Virus record (IMG/VR): IMGVR_UViG_3300021356_000166
Coordinates: 1 to 23,915 of that record
Reading direction: 5' to 3' (one strand)
DNA: 23,915 bases
Source: a virus
The notes under the pieces were generated by a model, which was given only the letters and a program-made list of their open reading frames with translations, had not been told where the DNA came from and searched no databases. Shown here in pieces: positions 3,078-11,642 of the stretch. A program made the position numbers and the translations under genes. How positions within the stretch are numbered: position 1 is the stretch's first letter; every line of letters begins with the position of its first letter.

Positions 3078-3335
3078 TTAGTTACTCCCATTAAAATTAA
3101 TTTGATATTGGTGATTAGTTGAAACTATTGTTTCACCTTCATCCCAATGCCTTTGGATAGTGTCGCAGTCTATCTCACCATTTATATATTCAAGTTCTGT
3201 TGGCACTTTGAATGTGCAACCACAAACTGAACATTCCCATGTTTCATTTAATGCACCGCCAATATATTGTGCATTCTTCAATCCACAATCTTTGGCCCCA
3301 TCATAGAAACATCCGCAACCCTGTAAGATTTCCAT
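3078..3335 (-). CDS. Cys-rich small protein, possible zinc-binding
   Basis: An 85-residue protein with seven Cys: C7, C9 and C17 near the start, C35, C38 and C40 in the core (ETWECSVCGCTFKVPTE) and C57. The WECSVCG-type knuckle (Cys-x-x-Cys-Gly) is typical of zinc ribbons, and a pair from the first cluster could supply the other ligands. I infer metal binding only; no function follows. An AAGGA element 9 nt before the ATG supports the start, which also overlaps the upstream stop by one base (TAATG). The stop codon falls inside the leader GGGAGTAACTAAA of the next gene. Confidence 0.7.
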   Translation of the reverse strand: MEILQGCGCFYDGAKDCGLKNAQYIGGALNETWECSVCGCTFKVPTELEYINGEIDCDTIQRHWDEGETIVSTNHQYQINFNGSN

Positions 3336-3649
3336 TAGTCCAAATCCTTCAGGATATAAGCGCCTGATTTAATTTTCTTTTCTGTCTCCCTCTTGGTTTC
3401 ATTTAAAAATATATTTCTATACTTCCCGGTAGTTCTTGAATAATCCCAGGCATTAACATTTAGATAAGTTCTACAGATTGGACTGTCTCCGAATGTATCC
3501 ATATATCTTGGCTCTGATTCCTTCAGTGCTATTAGTCTCCCATAGCTATAGAAGGCCTCATCTCCATTAGGATATGACACTACCAATTGATTGTTTTGAA
3601 GTTGTTTATACTTAATCTTCCTAAGTGTTTCTAATGTTGTTATTGACAT
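3335..3649 (-). CDS. Unknown protein, first gene after the putative early promoter
   Basis: A 104-residue protein starting MSITTLETLRKIKYKQL. A beta-rich middle (NNQLVVSYPNGDEAFYSYGRLIAL) is followed by a segment with conserved-looking aromatic residues (TYLNVNAWDYSRTTGKYRN) and a basic C-terminus. It resembles small unnamed proteins of marine phages in pattern, but I cannot name the family. The leader GGAGTAACTAAAAT precedes the ATG. About 50 nt upstream lies an operator-like palindrome and a sigma70-like promoter, so this is probably the first gene of the run that continues to 2556. Confidence 0.75.
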   Translation of the reverse strand: MSITTLETLRKIKYKQLQNNQLVVSYPNGDEAFYSYGRLIALKESEPRYMDTFGDSPICRTYLNVNAWDYSRTTGKYRNIFLNETKRETEKKIKSGAYILKDLD

Positions 3650-3677
3650 ATTTTAGTTACTCCATAAATGTCGTTGT

Positions 3678-3698
3678 TAAGTGTATCAATTACACTTA
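3678..3698 (-). promoter_or_regulatory. Operator-like palindrome at the likely transcription start
   Basis: TAAGTGTA (3678-3685) and TACACTTA (3691-3698) are perfect 8-bp inverted arms around a 5-bp spacer. It lies directly downstream of the candidate -10 at 3707-3712, where a repressor would block initiation or early elongation. The half-site TTACACT is shared with the palindromes at 203-243. Confidence 0.5.
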
Positions 3699-3706
3699 TG
3701 GATACA

Positions 3707-3736
3707 TTTATACCATCAATGAAATGTAACTGTCTA
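3707..3736 (-). promoter_or_regulatory. Candidate host sigma70-type promoter
   Basis: On the minus strand, TAGACA (plus 3731-3736) and TATAAA (plus 3707-3712) are separated by 18 bp, close to the TTGACA/TATAAT consensus. Transcription would begin near 3700 and run into the 104-aa gene with a leader of about 50 nt. A host-type promoter here would match the T7 plan, where host RNA polymerase reads the early genes from near the genome end. It is not proven by sequence alone. Confidence 0.45.
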
Positions 3737-3968
3737 GAAAAAAACAGAAACACCCACGATAAGACAAGCGCCAAAAAATAATAAATCTGCTGGAACCCGC
3801 ATAAACATTAGCAATTGATATGAAATCCCTTGTAATTTGGCTTAAACGTTGGCCTGTAGCGGTTTTATGTACCTTGCTCAGTGTCAAAAATATTGCCCTA
3901 CACTCCCCAAAAATCGAAGAGGGGGAGATTGCCCCGGGGCATGTCGATAACCCATTCATATTTTTTTA
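3737..3968. other. Non-coding region with GC-rich stem-loops
   Basis: This 230-bp stretch lies between the metallopeptidase gene and the promoter at 3707-3736. Its right end is far richer in G+C than the genome around it: CTCCCC (3903-3908) pairs with GGGGAG (3922-3927), and 3930-3941 is a perfect 12-bp palindrome, TGCCCCGGGGCA. A 16-nt element at 3849-3864 (TTGGCCTGTAGCGGTT) repeats the hairpin arm at 2484-2499. The open frame across it has no ribosome binding site and no protein-like composition. It could be the genome-terminus region, a structured RNA, or a replication or packaging site; I cannot tell which. Confidence 0.45.
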
Positions 3969-4310
3969 CTAAATATTTGGTTGTTGTTTGAGCCACTTAG
4001 ATAGCTCAGATCTGTATAGTAATTCTGCTATGCCATTAGCTAATGTATTGACTAAGATCTCTTCAGAAGTTTTATCATCACATTCAGATATAGAATATAT
4101 ATGGTGTAGTATTTCATGGATCACTAGATTAGCTGCATCTACTCCACCAGCATTTATAATATCTCTATCAAGATATATTCTGTATGGTACTGAACCAATA
4201 TAACAACCCTGTTGCTCACCAACCTCTTTGGCCATTATTGGATCCATTAGTACCAAATGTATCTTGGTGTAACCAATGGTCACATACTCAGGGAATACAG
4301 CTTTACCCAT
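3969..4310 (-). CDS. Putative zinc metallopeptidase (HEILH motif)
   Basis: A 113-residue protein with the metalloprotease signature VIHEILHHIY: H65, E66 and H69 make an HExxH motif in which the two His would bind zinc and Glu would be the catalytic base. E83 or E84 in SEEILVNTLANGIAELL, about 18 residues on, is a candidate third ligand, as in gluzincin-like folds. The upstream region (MGKAVFPEYVTIGYTKIHLV; CYIGSVPYRIYLDRDI) reads as a small beta sheet ahead of the active-site helix, typical of short one-domain phage and ImmA-like peptidases. No signal peptide is present, so a cytoplasmic substrate is likely. The start overlaps the small membrane gene upstream by 8 nt. Substrate unknown. Confidence 0.7.
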   Translation of the reverse strand: MGKAVFPEYVTIGYTKIHLVLMDPIMAKEVGEQQGCYIGSVPYRIYLDRDIINAGGVDAANLVIHEILHHIYSISECDDKTSEEILVNTLANGIAELLYRSELSKWLKQQPNI

Positions 4311-4473
4311 GACATAAAGATGCTAATAGATACCCTAAGATCACTAACATAACAAACTCAAACCAACTAATCTCAGGTTTAAGATAAATAGTCTTTATCT
4401 TATGTAGTATTCCTGGATAGTAGTGTATAGCTATTACTATAGTACATATCAGTATGAGTAGTGTTGTAGTCAT
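4303..4473 (-). CDS. Small two-span membrane protein downstream of the terminase
   Basis: A 56-residue protein, MTTTLLILICTIVIAIHYYP..., with hydrophobic segments at about residues 4-18 and 38-53 joined by a basic loop (ILHKIKTIYLKPEISW). AAAGGAATAAG precedes the ATG, a good ribosome binding site. The end overlaps the start of the metallopeptidase gene by 8 nt. In T7 a small membrane protein (gp19.5) likewise follows the large terminase, so the position is analogous, though no sequence similarity is claimed. Function unknown. Confidence 0.65.
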   Translation of the reverse strand: MTTTLLILICTIVIAIHYYPGILHKIKTIYLKPEISWFEFVMLVILGYLLASLCHG

Positions 4474-4690
4474 CTTATTCCTTTAGTTATATTAGGTGTA
4501 CCCTAGATACTCAGAGAGGACTAGGTGGTGGTAAGATATCTAAGATACACCCATGGTTCTCTACTAGTTACCTATAGTTACCTATAGTTATACTAATAGT
4601 TATGACTAATATCTCACCCACCCTTGATTACCTAAACAGGTACCTATTAGATTTAGTAGGTATCAAGTGTCTACTTTTTGATATTAGGAA
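4474..4690 (-). promoter_or_regulatory. Intergenic region after the large terminase with repeated TAGGTA motifs
   Basis: This 217-bp gap has no credible gene. It is dense in TAGGTA/TACCTA: the minus strand carries ACTATAGGTA twice in tandem (plus 4571-4590), TAGGTACC at about 4637-4646, TAGGTA near 4632, TACCTA near 4655, and CTAGGGTACACCT at about 4494-4507. The tandem AACTATAGGTA resembles the CACTATAGGG core of T7-family promoters (A at -6, C-T-A-T-A at -5 to -1, GG at +1). A phage-polymerase promoter for the 56-aa and metallopeptidase genes, or a terminal or regulatory region, are both possible. A bulged stem (CTTGATACCT with AGGTAATCAAG) lies at about 4628-4669 and lacks a T tract. Confidence 0.4.
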
Positions 4691-6352
4691 TTAGTTAATC
4701 CAATTGTTTCTAGTCTTACGACCAATTGTATGATCTAAGAATCTATCCAGTTCTTCTTTTAATCTCTCTTCTTTAGCACTAACTAATGCCTCATCCACAT
4801 CTCTACCTATAGCCTCATTCCATACTTGAACTGCCATAGCTAATACATCTATTAAGTCATCATGTCTTAAACACCCTTTAACCCTGGTAATTCTAGACAT
4901 CTGATAAAATAATTGATGATCTTTTTCTAATTCAAAGTCTTGCTTAATAAGTTCCTGATTTACTACCAGTCTATGCTGGTTCATTACAGGCTCTAGAGTG
5001 TCTATAATCCGCTTTTCTTTTTGGACTGATGATCTTACCTCAGATAATGTAACAGGGTATAATCTGCTTAATATTGGCTCTAATAGCCTATTAAACATAC
5101 CATCACCAAAGTTACTCTCTACGACTATCTCTTTGACATCTTGGGCCTTTGCAGCTAATGCTAAATCAGCTAATGTCTTTTCATCATAGCCACCATCAAA
5201 TGATCCAATATCTGTTAAATATAAGATTCCATTTAACATCTTAACGATTGCATAAGCAGTTCTATCCTTACCTCTTCCGGCTGGATCGACTGCCATAACA
5301 GCCCCCTCGAATGGATAATATTCACTACTGAAATGCATAGGTGCTACAAAATAATCACCTTTAAGGCCGACATTAGGTAACTCAGGATCTAATGCTTTGA
5401 TCTGTTCAATCCCACTAGCCCACTGTACTTTCCCTGGAGCCTCATCCCAGGAATCAATCCCTGACATAACCATGAGATCATTTAGTTTCAATGGGTACAT
5501 ATTTACATCAGATAATGAGGTGTCTAACATAAACTGTAGTGCGAATCCTGATCGACCATAAGAGGCCTCACGTTCCATAAGATCTTCATTGTCAAATCTT
5601 TGTGGATCTACAGGATCACCAGCTTTTAAATTGTTAGCATTTTCTATAAGTGATGCTGCTAGTTTATGGCCATATTGTGTTAACCCTTTTTCATCAGGAT
5701 ATCTTGCTGACCATATTTGAGTTTTAAATCCTCTTTCTTCTAAATCATTATATAAAGACATTTCAGTTTGTGGTGTGCCTAAAAATACAATTCTACCTAC
5801 TTCAGGTTTTATAATTGAATCAAATTCTTTTACAGTTTCACCTAATCTATCTCTCATTAGTTGTGTTTGTGAGTTGTTAGCTGATTCAACATCATCAGCA
5901 ATAATGAGATCGGCTCTCGAACCTGTTAGCTGACCAGTGATACCCATGGATTTACAACTAGGTGCATGAGATGCTCTAGCTGGTCCGACATCAAATGAGA
6001 CTTTAGATTGTCTTTGATTATCTTTAGGTTTCAAATGTTCACATATTGGTAACTCATGAATCAGTCTTTGAGTAAATGTACTGAAATCATCTGCTCTAGT
6101 TTTACTAGCAGATACAACTAAAATGTTTTTCTGAGGATCCATTAACCAATTCCATACTGTAAATGCAGATGTGATCCAAGATTTACCAGCACCCCTAAAT
6201 GCCTGGATGCAAATTCTTTTTGGTCCATGTTGAAGATAATCTGCTATATCGTATTGCATTGGAGTTGGATCCGGTAATTGGAGATGTTTCCATGCAAGAT
6301 AGAGAAAATTCTTAAAAATTTTTAATTTTGTTGGTGTTTTTAATTTTTTCAC
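4691..6352 (-). CDS. terL: Terminase large subunit, T7 gp19-like
   Basis: The 553-residue ATPase/nuclease that packages DNA into the prohead. Similarity to T7 gp19 runs the whole length. The ATPase domain has Walker A AFRGAGKS (51-58), the block VVSASKTRAD (79-88), DVGPARASHAPSCKSMGITG (121-140), Walker B LIIADD (149-154) and the coupling motif LGTPQTEM (191-198). The RNase H-fold nuclease has its acidic residues in AVDPAGRGKD (D356), VESNFGDGMF (E412) and HDDLIDVLA (D498/D499). Length is near T7's 586. The start is GTG at 6350-6352; it is not ideal, since the best SD (GAGG) lies 10 nt upstream, but nothing better is nearby. The small terminase is 62 nt upstream. Confidence 0.97.
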   Translation of the reverse strand: MKKLKTPTKLKIFKNFLYLAWKHLQLPDPTPMQYDIADYLQHGPKRICIQAFRGAGKSWITSAFTVWNWLMDPQKNILVVSASKTRADDFSTFTQRLIHELPICEHLKPKDNQRQSKVSFDVGPARASHAPSCKSMGITGQLTGSRADLIIADDVESANNSQTQLMRDRLGETVKEFDSIIKPEVGRIVFLGTPQTEMSLYNDLEERGFKTQIWSARYPDEKGLTQYGHKLAASLIENANNLKAGDPVDPQRFDNEDLMEREASYGRSGFALQFMLDTSLSDVNMYPLKLNDLMVMSGIDSWDEAPGKVQWASGIEQIKALDPELPNVGLKGDYFVAPMHFSSEYYPFEGAVMAVDPAGRGKDRTAYAIVKMLNGILYLTDIGSFDGGYDEKTLADLALAAKAQDVKEIVVESNFGDGMFNRLLEPILSRLYPVTLSEVRSSVQKEKRIIDTLEPVMNQHRLVVNQELIKQDFELEKDHQLFYQMSRITRVKGCLRHDDLIDVLAMAVQVWNEAIGRDVDEALVSAKEERLKEELDRFLDHTIGRKTRNNWIN

Positions 6353-6654: not shown

Positions 6655-6736
6655 AAACTGTAAACTCTCCGATTGTTACTGAATGTCTTGAACATGCAGA
6701 TATAAATATTAAACCTAGTATCAATATTGATCTCAT
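6605..6736 (-). CDS. Short lipoprotein, candidate outer-membrane spanin
   Basis: A 43-residue protein, MRSILILGLIFISACSRHS..., with a short basic start, a hydrophobic core and a lipobox (Ile-Ser-Ala-Cys, C15), so it should be lipidated and end up in the outer membrane. The mature part is only 29 residues and carries a small Pro-containing tail (QEIPAPTRSNN), as Rz1-type outer-membrane spanins do. Its ATG overlaps the stop of the cupin gene as ATGA, and its last 50 nt overlap the small terminase gene in another frame. T7 likewise has its spanin genes between the terminase genes. The matching inner-membrane partner could be the 78-residue protein at 7370-7606. Confidence 0.65.
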   Translation of the reverse strand: MRSILILGLIFISACSRHSVTIGEFTVYGSNEQEIPAPTRSNN

Positions 6737-7230
6737 AATCCTGTTTGTTTTTTATGGCTCTCACCCATAAAAATTTTACCATCCCAATCTGAACTAACAT
6801 GGGTTGGTGGCTCACCATTTAACCAATGTTGTATTGATAAAAAGGATCCACCATTTTTAGATGATAATGCACCATGAGGATCATTAGGCCTTACTCGAAT
6901 TGTTGTGTATGCATATTTAGGCATACCTTCATACTCTTCTAAGGATTGCTCATGATCTATTGCATATTTACCATTGTGTGTAAATTCCATTCCATATAAA
7001 AATAATTCATAACTATCTACATTAGGATGTGTATGAACCGGTATAGTTACATTAGGTTCACAGATAAATAATTCTACCTGGAAGTTATCTCTTCTATATA
7101 AGACAACACCGCTAACACCTTCTATAAATAATAGAGGATCATTGTATGGTGCATAAATTCTTTTAATGTCGCCTGAGTTAAGATACCAGTCTGCAAATTG
7201 TGATAAGGAATCTTCTTTAGGATCTATCAT
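6733..7230 (-). CDS. Cupin-fold protein
   Basis: A 165-residue single-domain cupin. The first cupin motif is PVHTHPNVDSYELFLYG (65-80), with H66, H68 and E75 as metal ligands; the second is PNDPHGALSSKNGGSFLSIQHW with H119 and H135, H119 being the likely fourth ligand. All four ligands of a metal cupin are thus present, so enzymatic activity (dioxygenase, isomerase or similar) or small-molecule sensing is possible. The substrate cannot be read from sequence. No signal peptide, so cytoplasmic. Its start overlaps the lysine-rich 46-aa gene (AAATGAT) and its stop overlaps the lipoprotein start. A metabolic or virion-protein-modifying role is open; it has no counterpart in T7. Confidence 0.75.
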   Translation of the reverse strand: MIDPKEDSLSQFADWYLNSGDIKRIYAPYNDPLLFIEGVSGVVLYRRDNFQVELFICEPNVTIPVHTHPNVDSYELFLYGMEFTHNGKYAIDHEQSLEEYEGMPKYAYTTIRVRPNDPHGALSSKNGGSFLSIQHWLNGEPPTHVSSDWDGKIFMGESHKKQTGL

Positions 7231-10110: not shown

Positions 10111-10157
10111 TTCTTTTTCTTTTTAGCTGGTTTGCTTTTTGGTTTTTTATACATCAT
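10107..10157 (-). CDS. Possible 16-residue lysine-rich micropeptide
   Basis: The frame reads MMYKKPKSKPAKKKKK. Its ATG is inside the last codons of the second desaturase and its stop overlaps the start of the XhlA-like gene. The last 21 nt, through the downstream ATG, are identical to the end of the 46-aa lysine-rich gene (plus 7226-7246 and 10106-10126). It may be a real peptide, a remnant of a duplicated copy of that gene, or a purine-rich leader with no coding role. I treat it as low confidence. Confidence 0.3.
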   Translation of the reverse strand: MMYKKPKSKPAKKKKK

Positions 10158-10914
10158 GTTTGTGATCTCCGGTTAAAAATAATTGTTCAATGAAAAATGC
10201 TGGTGGATCTATTTCCCACCACTTATGGCCATGCCTATGATCTTTAGATATTGTATGGTGATAGTTATGCCAACCTTCACCCCAGCTAATTAAACTGGTT
10301 AATGGTGAATTGACTGCGGTGCAATCTTTATTTGGTTCAATAACTATATATCCAAAATATTTACAATGTGGTATTACACCAAATGCACCAGCCGCCTGGT
10401 AAATACATGCTGCTGGAAATGAGAATCCAAAGATCCCTAACATTGGATCAATAGCATATAAAGTTATGATCCAGGTGAATAATAAGATCCAATAATGTTT
10501 AGTAATAAACATATAATCTTTATCTTTTAAAATATCTTTTACCATAGTTTTAGGTACTTTAATTGGATCATATAGTGTGAGCCAGGCTCTTATGTATCCT
10601 ATACGATCAGGTGATTCATTATCTTTATCACTACCGCTATACATATGATGATACCTATGCATTGCAGTCCAGGATAATGGACTTCCAAATGCTGATATAA
10701 CTGTAAGATATTTTAAGATCTTAGTTTTAATTGGTGTTGTACTAAAAGATCTATGAGACATAAATCTGTGGATAGCAATATTAGTTGAAAATATATTTAC
10801 TAATCCCCAGGCCACTAATCCATAAACAATATATTCAGGAAAATAAATACATCCAGCTATTGCTATAATATGATTTATTAATGCTAGTAATTGCACACCT
10901 CTTGCATGATTCAT
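10147..10914 (-). CDS. Membrane fatty-acid desaturase (SCD/DesC family), second of pair
   Basis: A 255-residue integral membrane desaturase; starting from ATG at 10912-10914 the first box is H49RFMSH54, the second W-x-A-M-H86RYHH90 and the third GEGWH216NYHH220. A ninth candidate ligand, H183 (VIPHCKYFG), also matches the animal stearoyl-CoA desaturase pattern. Hydrophobic segments at about 8-24, 28-45, 65-85, 143-160 and 163-182 fit four spans. Expected reaction: insertion of a cis double bond into an acyl chain, using O2 and electrons from host ferredoxin or cytochrome b5-like donor. GAGG lies 5 nt before this ATG and it overlaps the upstream stop as ATGA; a GTG two codons upstream has no spacing for an SD. 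Substrate and position are unknown. Confidence 0.88.
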   Translation of the reverse strand: MNHARGVQLLALINHIIAIAGCIYFPEYIVYGLVAWGLVNIFSTNIAIHRFMSHRSFSTTPIKTKILKYLTVISAFGSPLSWTAMHRYHHMYSGSDKDNESPDRIGYIRAWLTLYDPIKVPKTMVKDILKDKDYMFITKHYWILLFTWIITLYAIDPMLGIFGFSFPAACIYQAAGAFGVIPHCKYFGYIVIEPNKDCTAVNSPLTSLISWGEGWHNYHHTISKDHRHGHKWWEIDPPAFFIEQLFLTGDHKHDV

Positions 10915-11642
10915 ATCCACCTCAATTTAGTTATAATCCAAACCCAGGGATCAAATTTACAATGTTTTAGTTTAGGTTTAATATGGTGTTGTACATGAAA
11001 TGATTCTGAAAATGCAACAGGATACATATAAGGAACATCTCTAACTTTACCTAAATGACACATAATGCCTGTAACTGTCATAACCCAAAAGGTTGTCATA
11101 GCTACTGCTGTTGCCCACATCAAAAACATATCAAATGGCAAAACTAAAAAAAGAATAAAGTTAAACGTATATGCTAAAACTGTTTCATGTTTAGTTAAAA
11201 ATAGTTGCCATTTATTTCTTAACCTATCTCCACATAAAGATAAATCGTAATCTTGTTCGTGTGTTCTAAATATAATATATAACCATGAGCTATGCTTTGG
11301 ACTGTGTGGATCCGAAACAGTATCTGCATATCTGTGGTGGTTTCTGTGCCATGCACTATATGATATTGGTGTGCCTATTAATGCAGTCATAGATATTACA
11401 CTCATTATGTTTTGAAACCATACAGGTGGATTCCATAGATTGTGTGTAGCCCATCTATGAATAAACAAACTCATAGTAAATTCTAATAAAAAGTAAAAGA
11501 GTATGTAAGTGTATAAAAGTTGTAGCCAAGATAGTGCTACAAAAGAATATAATGCTAATCCAAAGTAAGTAATATATAAGATACTAAGTAACACATTAAA
11601 ATTCCCAACAATGTTGTATCTGACCTGTTTCTGTTCCATCAT
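10911..11642 (-). CDS. Membrane fatty-acid desaturase, first of pair
   Basis: A 243-residue desaturase, divergent from its downstream partner. Boxes: H62RWATH67, W-H99RNHH103 followed by RYADTVSDPHSP, and SESFH216VQHH220; H196 (GIMCHLGKV) is the likely ninth His. The HRxHHxxxD...DPHSP pattern is the classic acyl-CoA/acyl-lipid delta-9-type signature. Multiple hydrophobic segments (17-38, 42-61, 158-176, 178-195) make a membrane enzyme. The ATG pair at 11637-11642 overlaps the upstream gene by 47 nt without a clear SD; a GTG at 11592-11594 with GGGAA 7 nt in front, right after that gene's stop, is a good alternative that would drop 16 residues. ATGA-coupled to the second desaturase. Likely modifies host membrane lipids. 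Confidence 0.85.
   Translation of the reverse strand: MMEQKQVRYNIVGNFNVLLSILYITYFGLALYSFVALSWLQLLYTYILFYFLLEFTMSLFIHRWATHNLWNPPVWFQNIMSVISMTALIGTPISYSAWHRNHHRYADTVSDPHSPKHSSWLYIIFRTHEQDYDLSLCGDRLRNKWQLFLTKHETVLAYTFNFILFLVLPFDMFLMWATAVAMTTFWVMTVTGIMCHLGKVRDVPYMYPVAFSESFHVQHHIKPKLKHCKFDPWVWIITKLRWI

Follow-up and report, generated by a model that had tools for sequence, protein, structure and literature searches.

In the viral genome fragment analysed here, a stretch of 319 bp (3650-3968) separates the stop codon of a 113-aa gene from the start of a 104-aa open reading frame, and the question arises which element is situated at this border between late and early genes. The fragment, hereafter the window, is the whole IMG/VR virus record of 23,915 bases, the long open reading frames of which lie on the minus strand. 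A sequence-only reading of the same DNA had described the stretch as a non-coding region between a late peptidase gene and a run of small genes, and had proposed that it contains the genome terminus. The former statement is confirmed, and the latter is strongly supported by boundary signals which follow one another in the same order as at the ends of T7, T3, gh-1, Syn5, Pasto, P-SSP7 and HTVC019P. We consider it very likely that the stretch is the concatemer junction, or genome terminus, of a T7-type phage with a direct terminal repeat; this conclusion is based on the sequence, its conservation, its probable non-coding status and the match of both boundaries to records that carry the repeat.

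Genomic context of the 319-bp stretch

The terminase large subunit encoded in the window shares 82.8% identity with that of AP013540 (uncultured phage MedDCM-OCT-S28-C10), 77.1% with that of HTVC200P and 76.4% with that of HTVC119P, all of which are classified as Votkovvirus within the Autographiviridae. Judged by these comparisons, the window phage is Votkovvirus-like and T7-like and related to SAR11 phages of the ocean, and its kinship suggests SAR11 as the host. By synteny with AP013540, the order in the window is structural genes, terminase, peptidase-like gene, the 319-bp stretch and small genes; in the relatives (AP013540, HTVC200P and HTVC119P), the same order is continued by a MarR-type or other regulator, an integrase and the phage RNA polymerase. 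The genes for the RNA polymerase and for an amidase/lysozyme lie outside the window fragment and are annotated in the relatives. The stretch is located between the last late and the first early gene, downstream of the terminase large subunit gene, and this gene order implies that the two ends of a T7-like gene map, right and left, meet in it (Table 1). For the peptidase-like protein itself, no Pfam match was found.

An 83-aa open reading frame (3708-3959, minus strand) covers much of the stretch. Stop codons interrupt it in 14 of 14 relatives when the same frame is followed from the repeat start with indels uncorrected, and two of them (L002 and L008), for which no indel needs to be assumed, also lack the ATG. 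The frame is therefore very unlikely to be a gene; a coding reading was rejected on these grounds, and the stretch is probably non-coding.

Other parts of the window offer observations of their own. Two adjacent desaturase-like genes in the late region (10147-10920 and 10911-11642, minus strand) match PF00487 (fatty acid desaturase-like) with E-values of 7e-13 and 2.8e-6, the second just under the curated cut-off, and are candidates for an auxiliary metabolic role in membrane lipids. Not far upstream of the terminase, a 165-aa gene (6733-7230, minus strand) gives a weak match to PCO_ADO, a cysteine/cysteamine dioxygenase-like cupin, with an E-value of 3.6e-5 that is below the curated cut-off. 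The non-coding interval between the terminase and the next small gene (4474-4690) contains three copies of a AGTTACCTAT-like 10-mer, which can be likened to the short CCTAAAG repeats near the ends of T7.

Table 1. Positions of the genes and signals at the late/early border of the window
Feature	Position	Strand	Remark
Terminase large subunit, T7 gp19 type, presumed cutting enzyme	4691-6352	-	Sequence comparison
Small gene	4303-4473		
Last late gene, 113 aa, HEILHH motif, peptidase-like	3969-4310	-	AP013540 homologue annotated 'peptidase'
Pre-cut block AATATTTAGTAAAAAAATATGAATGGGTTA	3948..3977	-	Conserved in relatives; similar block directly before the repeat of T7, T3, Pasto, HTVC019P and others
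Predicted direct terminal repeat, 202 bp	3746..3947	-	Boundaries by homology to the exact 162-bp HTVC019P repeat
12-bp palindrome TGCCCCGGGGCA, perfect, inside the predicted repeat	3930..3941	.	Not a conserved part
C-run CCCCC, position +23 of the predicted repeat	3921..3925	-	Constant part of the 'GC-rich stem-loop'
C-run/G-run hairpin CTCCCC...GGGGAG	3903..3927	-	Foldable; no consensus pairs
Junction box TTTCTGTTTTTTTC	3737..3750	-	Spans the predicted right cut (between 3746 and 3745); conserved in relatives
Candidate host sigma-70-like early promoter TAGACA-18-TATAAA	3707..3736	-	10/12 consensus matches
Inverted repeat AAGTGTA-ATTGA-TACACTT	3679..3697	-	Near the expected transcription start; near-copy in L002/L008
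First early gene, 104 aa, unknown function	3335-3649	-	Open reading frame

Boundary signals and their conservation

Read leftward, the region consists of a pre-cut block, which overlaps the last codons and the stop of the peptidase-like gene and lies directly upstream of the predicted left repeat boundary, followed by the predicted repeat with the C-run 23 nt inside it, and by TCTGTTTTTTT over the predicted right cut. The window carries a single copy of the predicted repeat, as expected of an assembly in which the two genome ends are fused. With cuts marked by a slash here and below, the predicted left cut reads ...ATATGAATGGGTTA/TCGACATG and the right cut ...GGGTGTTTCT/GTTTTTTTC, or in short GGGTTA/TCG and GTTTCT/GTTTTTTT; we infer the exact cut bases by homology, and they could be a few bases off. 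The junction box resembles ATCTGTT, the class II pause/termination signal of T7 RNA polymerase, and the pause-type box at the right boundary takes the form TTCTGTTTTTTT in the window. The predicted repeat length of 202 bp recurs in L002, L008, AP013540 and L032, and amounts to 211-212 bp in HTVC200P, HTVC119P and their near relatives.

The boundaries were placed by comparison with HTVC019P (KC465901), a cultured pelagiphage of the genus Pelagivirus, in the deposited record of which both ends consist of an exact direct repeat of 162 bp, with the cuts ...ATTATGAGGGGGTA/TCGTATTACAC and ...GAGGGTCT/GTTTTTTTGC (in short GGGGGTA/TCG and GGTCT/GTTTTTTT). The two phages share the type of pre-cut block, the TA/TCG left boundary, the CT/GTTTTTTT right boundary and the position of the repeat between the last late and the first early genes, and the C-run starts at +26 in HTVC019P and at +23 in the window. 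They belong to different genera, however, and their repeats differ in length (162 versus a predicted 202 bp) and look mostly unlike inside. T7, with a repeat of 160 bp (231 bp in T3), likewise has a AAAAATCTGA block before the cut, a C-run at +26, ATCTGTT at the right edge and host promoters downstream, where the window has its candidate. The T7 cut precedes ATCTGTT, whereas that of HTVC019P, and by analogy probably that of the window, falls inside the box, and the T-run after the box is longer in the window than in T7. Polarivirus skadi, a SAR11 podophage of another, HTVC010P-like group, has likewise been described as having a direct terminal repeat (125 bp), with the terminase gene placed within the repeat region (PMC10504331); its likeness to the window is one of description.

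The comparison was extended to ten Autographiviridae whose records carry or annotate a terminal repeat, namely T7, T3, gh-1, Syn5, Pasto, P-SSP7, HTVC019P, LUZ100, SP6 and phiKMV. A pre-cut block like that of the window is found in 8 of the 10, displaced in LUZ100 and divergent in Syn5, and is missing from SP6 and phiKMV. Immediately before the repeat, the sequences are AATATACCATAAAAATCTGAGTGACTA/TCTC in T7, AATTTACCACAAAAATCTGAATGGGTA/TCTC in T3 (or AAAAATCTGAATGGGTA/TCTC), AATCTGACAGAAAAATCTGAATGGTCA/CCTC in gh-1, AAATTTGCCCCAAAAATCCGAGACACTG/AACT in Pasto, AGTATTTTGGCATAATTTTGTGAAGGGGTA/GCTA in Syn5, ATTTTGGCAGAAATGTCTGAGGTCATA/TATA in P-SSP7 and AATATTTCATAGAAAATTATGAGGGGGTA/TCGT in HTVC019P, compared with AATATTTAGTAAAAAAATATGAATGGGTTA/TCGA in the window. 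At the right end, ATCTGTT occurs in T7, T3, Pasto and Syn5, A/TCTGTT in SP6, CCTATCTGT in gh-1, ACCTGTT in P-SSP7 and GGTCT/GTTTTTTT in HTVC019P. Seven of 9 phages have TCTGT between -2 and +5 relative to the end of the repeat, and P-SSP7 has the CCTGTT variant; no TCTGT was found at the right cut of phiKMV and LUZ100. The departures of SP6, phiKMV and LUZ100 from the pattern count against the junction. The C-run starts at +25 to +29 in 9 of the 10, the exception being LUZ100 (+14 by its annotation), and its background frequency per position is 0.001-0.029 in T7, LUZ100, Pasto and the window and 0.000 (rounded) in HTVC119P. In P-SSP7, which was examined last and the ends of which have been determined experimentally according to PMC3350473, the pre-cut block, the C-run and the variant right box are all present.

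Two of these comparisons touch on the annotation and diversity of left ends. The LUZ100 block (L055, 37054-37099) lies 10 nt upstream of the annotated repeat start, and block and C-run distance together suggest that the repeat begins about 10-13 nt before the annotated position. SP6 (L072/L073) and phiKMV (L074/L075) have in common a different pre-repeat sequence, AATTTTGATAT...CGTGTG, in spite of which both have the C-run; the Autographiviridae may therefore have left-end signals of two classes.

Among the relatives of the window, an alignment of 11 revealed two conserved blocks about 200 nt apart, of which the first, AATATTTnGTAnAAAAATATGAGAGGGTTATCG, adjoins the peptidase stop and the second, GGTGTTTCTGTTTTTTTC, precedes the first early gene. 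The first C of the C-run is at +23 to +25 in all 16 distinct sequences (window and relatives). In AP013540, the nearest annotated relative and a metagenomic complete genome, the peptidase end and the region are 69% identical to the window and contain the same blocks, with no annotated repeat, and without the 12-bp palindrome and the promoter hexamers. The records of HTVC200P and HTVC119P, the two closest isolates, begin at a gene. A pattern scan of the viral collection for the first block returned 25 stretches, 21 of them with junction context as judged by eye; the other four (L021, L026, L037 and L041) were excluded from matrix training. Scanning for a repeat-interior pattern gave 12 stretches, five of them new, and in these 12 no contig end was found at a predicted boundary. 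One short contig (L036) ends at position 5366, 1 nt past the pre-cut pattern and about 4 nt into the predicted repeat, which is possibly a physical or processing end; as a single case it was not counted as evidence. The second block by itself had 17 exact matches in the viral collection, with the first block upstream in six and absent in 11, and the right box was for this reason rejected as a stand-alone marker. In L032 and L010 (AP013540), two AATGATTCCGCCA-type near-copies lie about 40-50 nt apart inside the predicted repeat as seen by eye, and these are possible binding sites.

Since the pre-cut block had first been noticed by eye, the motif is post hoc, and matrix tests across independent sets served as the control. 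A matrix built from T7, T3, gh-1, Syn5 and Pasto ranked the window site 5th of 47,764 positions at full length and 4th of 47,786 with the core; with another column cut the site was 3rd of 47,784, and after addition of LUZ100 it was 3rd in both versions. Among the relatives, the five-phage matrix ranked the site (full length, core) 1st and 3rd in HTVC119P, 1st and 3rd in HTVC200P, 2nd and 7th in AP013540, and 1st and 1st in L009. In L007 it came 23rd of 30,824 at full length and 2nd of 30,846 with the core, and the close relative L008 ranked poorly (48th of 31,190 and 26th of 31,212). That the site is not first in the window, and that the matrix performs poorly on L008 and, at full length, on L007, counts against the junction. 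In the opposite direction, 11 distinct blocks taken from the window and its relatives were made into a matrix which, with about 75,000-86,000 sites scored per genome, placed the repeat start 4th in T7 and 3rd in Pasto, and 6th in LUZ100, there 10 nt off.

Phage-polymerase promoters were also considered. A scan of six sequences (the window, AP013540, HTVC200P, HTVC119P and parts of L008 and L007) with the pre-cut block matrix yielded a single strong site per sequence. The block is therefore not a repeated promoter, and its interpretation as a promoter of the phage polymerase was rejected. A search for repeated promoter motifs in three relatives returned low-complexity, protein-repeat or weak matches only and no phage promoter. 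That no such promoter was identified upstream of the predicted junction likewise counts against the stretch being one.

Stem-loops, early promoter and alternative explanations

The sequence-only reading had drawn attention to GC-rich stem-loops in the stretch, including the palindrome TGCCCCGGGGCA, and had considered them as a packaging (terminal) element or a structured RNA. The region is indeed rich in G+C, with 59% over the 49 bases at 3897-3945 compared with 33% in the window, a value reached by 9 of 23,867 stretches of the same length. Palindromes of this length are not rare (8 in the window versus 9.7 expected), a GC-rich one of at least 10 bp occurs once (TGCCCCGGGGCA) versus 0.18 expected, and TGCCCCGGGGCA is lacking from all 15 other distinct relative sequences in the comparison. 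The stems can thus be folded in the window and the palindrome is perfect, but the pairing is not conserved: the covariation which had been suggested as a check is absent, as RNAalifold returned 0 pairs for 13 aligned sequences. A G-run follows the C-run in part of the sequences, which would give a short hairpin in some members: GGGG lies within 30 nt past the C-run in 4 of 16 sequences (window, L006, AP013540 and L032) and in 4 of 10 phages with known repeats (T7, gh-1, P-SSP7 and LUZ100), and GGG in 9 of 16 (window included) and 6 of 10, respectively.

A structured regulatory RNA or an intrinsic terminator at the late/early boundary would account for the two GC-rich hairpins of the window, for the G-runs in some relatives and known-repeat phages, and for a whole-region fold slightly better than that of shuffled sequences (z -1.8, with 6 of 100 shuffles as good). 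Such an RNA is nevertheless highly improbable, given that no pairs were found in the alignment, that the GC-rich segment as RNA folds no better than shuffles (z 0.23), that neither an Rfam match nor a terminator-like site was detected in the scan, and that in T3, Syn5, Pasto and HTVC019P the C-run is retained and the 30 nt after it contain no GGG. As the constant element is the C-run and not the pairing, a packaging element is the role that is supported for this part of the stretch, and a structured RNA is not.

The early promoter proposed in the same reading stands as a sequence and is well placed, starting at the 10th base past the predicted right cut, but its statistics are not compelling. 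By chance, 319 nt should contain about 0.12 such promoter-like sites on each strand, but when the 180 nt after the cut were resampled with a Markov model, 27 of 200 sequences reached the score of the candidate, so that the promoter is weak by itself and was rejected as strong evidence. The hexamers are identical only in L002 and L008 among the aligned relatives, and of eight other sequences scored, L002 alone has the promoter. It is missing from the automated scan because the latter requires a T at the last -10 position. With only 96 nt between the right cut and the first early gene, it is still the best candidate; its function as an early promoter is plausible. The candidate lies about 10 nt from the cut, as opposed to hundreds in T7, and in HTVC019P the best sigma-70-like site past the repeat reaches only 6/12. 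The operator-like palindrome is present as well, as an inverted repeat which is possibly an operator or a 5' UTR hairpin, although a like repeat arose in 306 of 2000 simulated regions and chance is also an explanation.

Promoter and inverted repeat just before the first early gene could mean that the stretch is an early promoter/operator region only, with the junction elsewhere. The probability of this is very slight, as the conserved blocks lie upstream of the promoter and match the repeat boundaries of other phages, whereas few parts of the stretch are less conserved than the promoter. Equally remote is an attP site, in which the GC-rich palindromic part would duplicate the end of a host tRNA and serve the tyrosine integrase of these temperate phages. 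An integrase is encoded in the relatives, and HTVC019P has been shown to integrate in its host, as stated in PMC10134795; yet no tRNA gene was found in the window, a tRNA feature is annotated in AP013540 directly beside the integrase, 5 kb from the junction region, and LUZ100 has a tRNA-Leu beside its integrase, so that attP is probably located there. The boundary signals are, moreover, common to T7, T3, Syn5 and P-SSP7, and on the tRNA scan of the window and the annotation of AP013540 and LUZ100, attP was rejected for the stretch.

Proposed processing of the junction and a probable end code for T7-like phages

For the window phage, the concatemer junction would imply cutting, pausing and promoter activity along the following lines. 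In the infected cell, genomes would be joined head to tail via one shared repeat copy of about 202 bp (3947-3746, minus strand). The phage RNA polymerase, arriving from the late genes, would by analogy pause at TCTGTTTTTTT at the right repeat edge, and a complex of polymerase and lysozyme would recruit the terminase, which may then cut at the repeat boundaries beside the conserved pre-cut block and the C-run. The repeat would be duplicated, leaving a copy at both ends of the DNA in each virion, and in the next infection the left end would deliver the host promoter beside the repeat for transcription of the early genes. According to PMC3276506, the complex of polymerase and lysozyme pauses at the concatemer junction, and this pausing is linked to packaging; ATCTGTT followed by a U-run is described in PMC11617373 and PMC9624206 as a class II signal for pausing or termination of T7 polymerase. 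The response is not universal, since the signal is ignored by the polymerase of phage VSW-3 (PMC9624206).

Across much of the Autographiviridae, including coliphages, cyanophages and SAR11 phages, the sequences probably share a three-box end code, composed of the pre-cut block (by-eye consensus approximately AATTTnGnnnAAAAATCTGAGnGGGTA/TC), a C-run some 26 nt from the start of the repeat, and TCTGTT, which marks the right cut. Since its distance is nearly fixed, the C-run may be a recognition element measured from the cut. Conservation of the start within a genus is already known, as PMC10438801 notes that przondoviruses have almost the same starting sequence, which helps to find the repeat start. 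In passages of the open-licence literature, PMC9437464 and PMC12753301 among them, we found no statement of the HTVC019P repeat or of the three-box signature; the older T7 literature lies mostly outside that body of text. A T7-type junction is a known kind of element, and more on the shared signals may be in print.

SAR11 phages are abundant in the sea, and their physical genome ends are often not given in the records. The present analysis places the predicted ends of one uncultured SAR11-phage relative to within a few bases, offers an explanation for a conserved non-coding stretch and corrects the idea of the stem-loops, in that the C-run is constant and the pairing is not. It also provides a testable rule for locating the ends of other T7-like phages: if true, the end code would predict the ends and repeat lengths of uncultured T7-like phages from circular or fragmentary metagenomic contigs.
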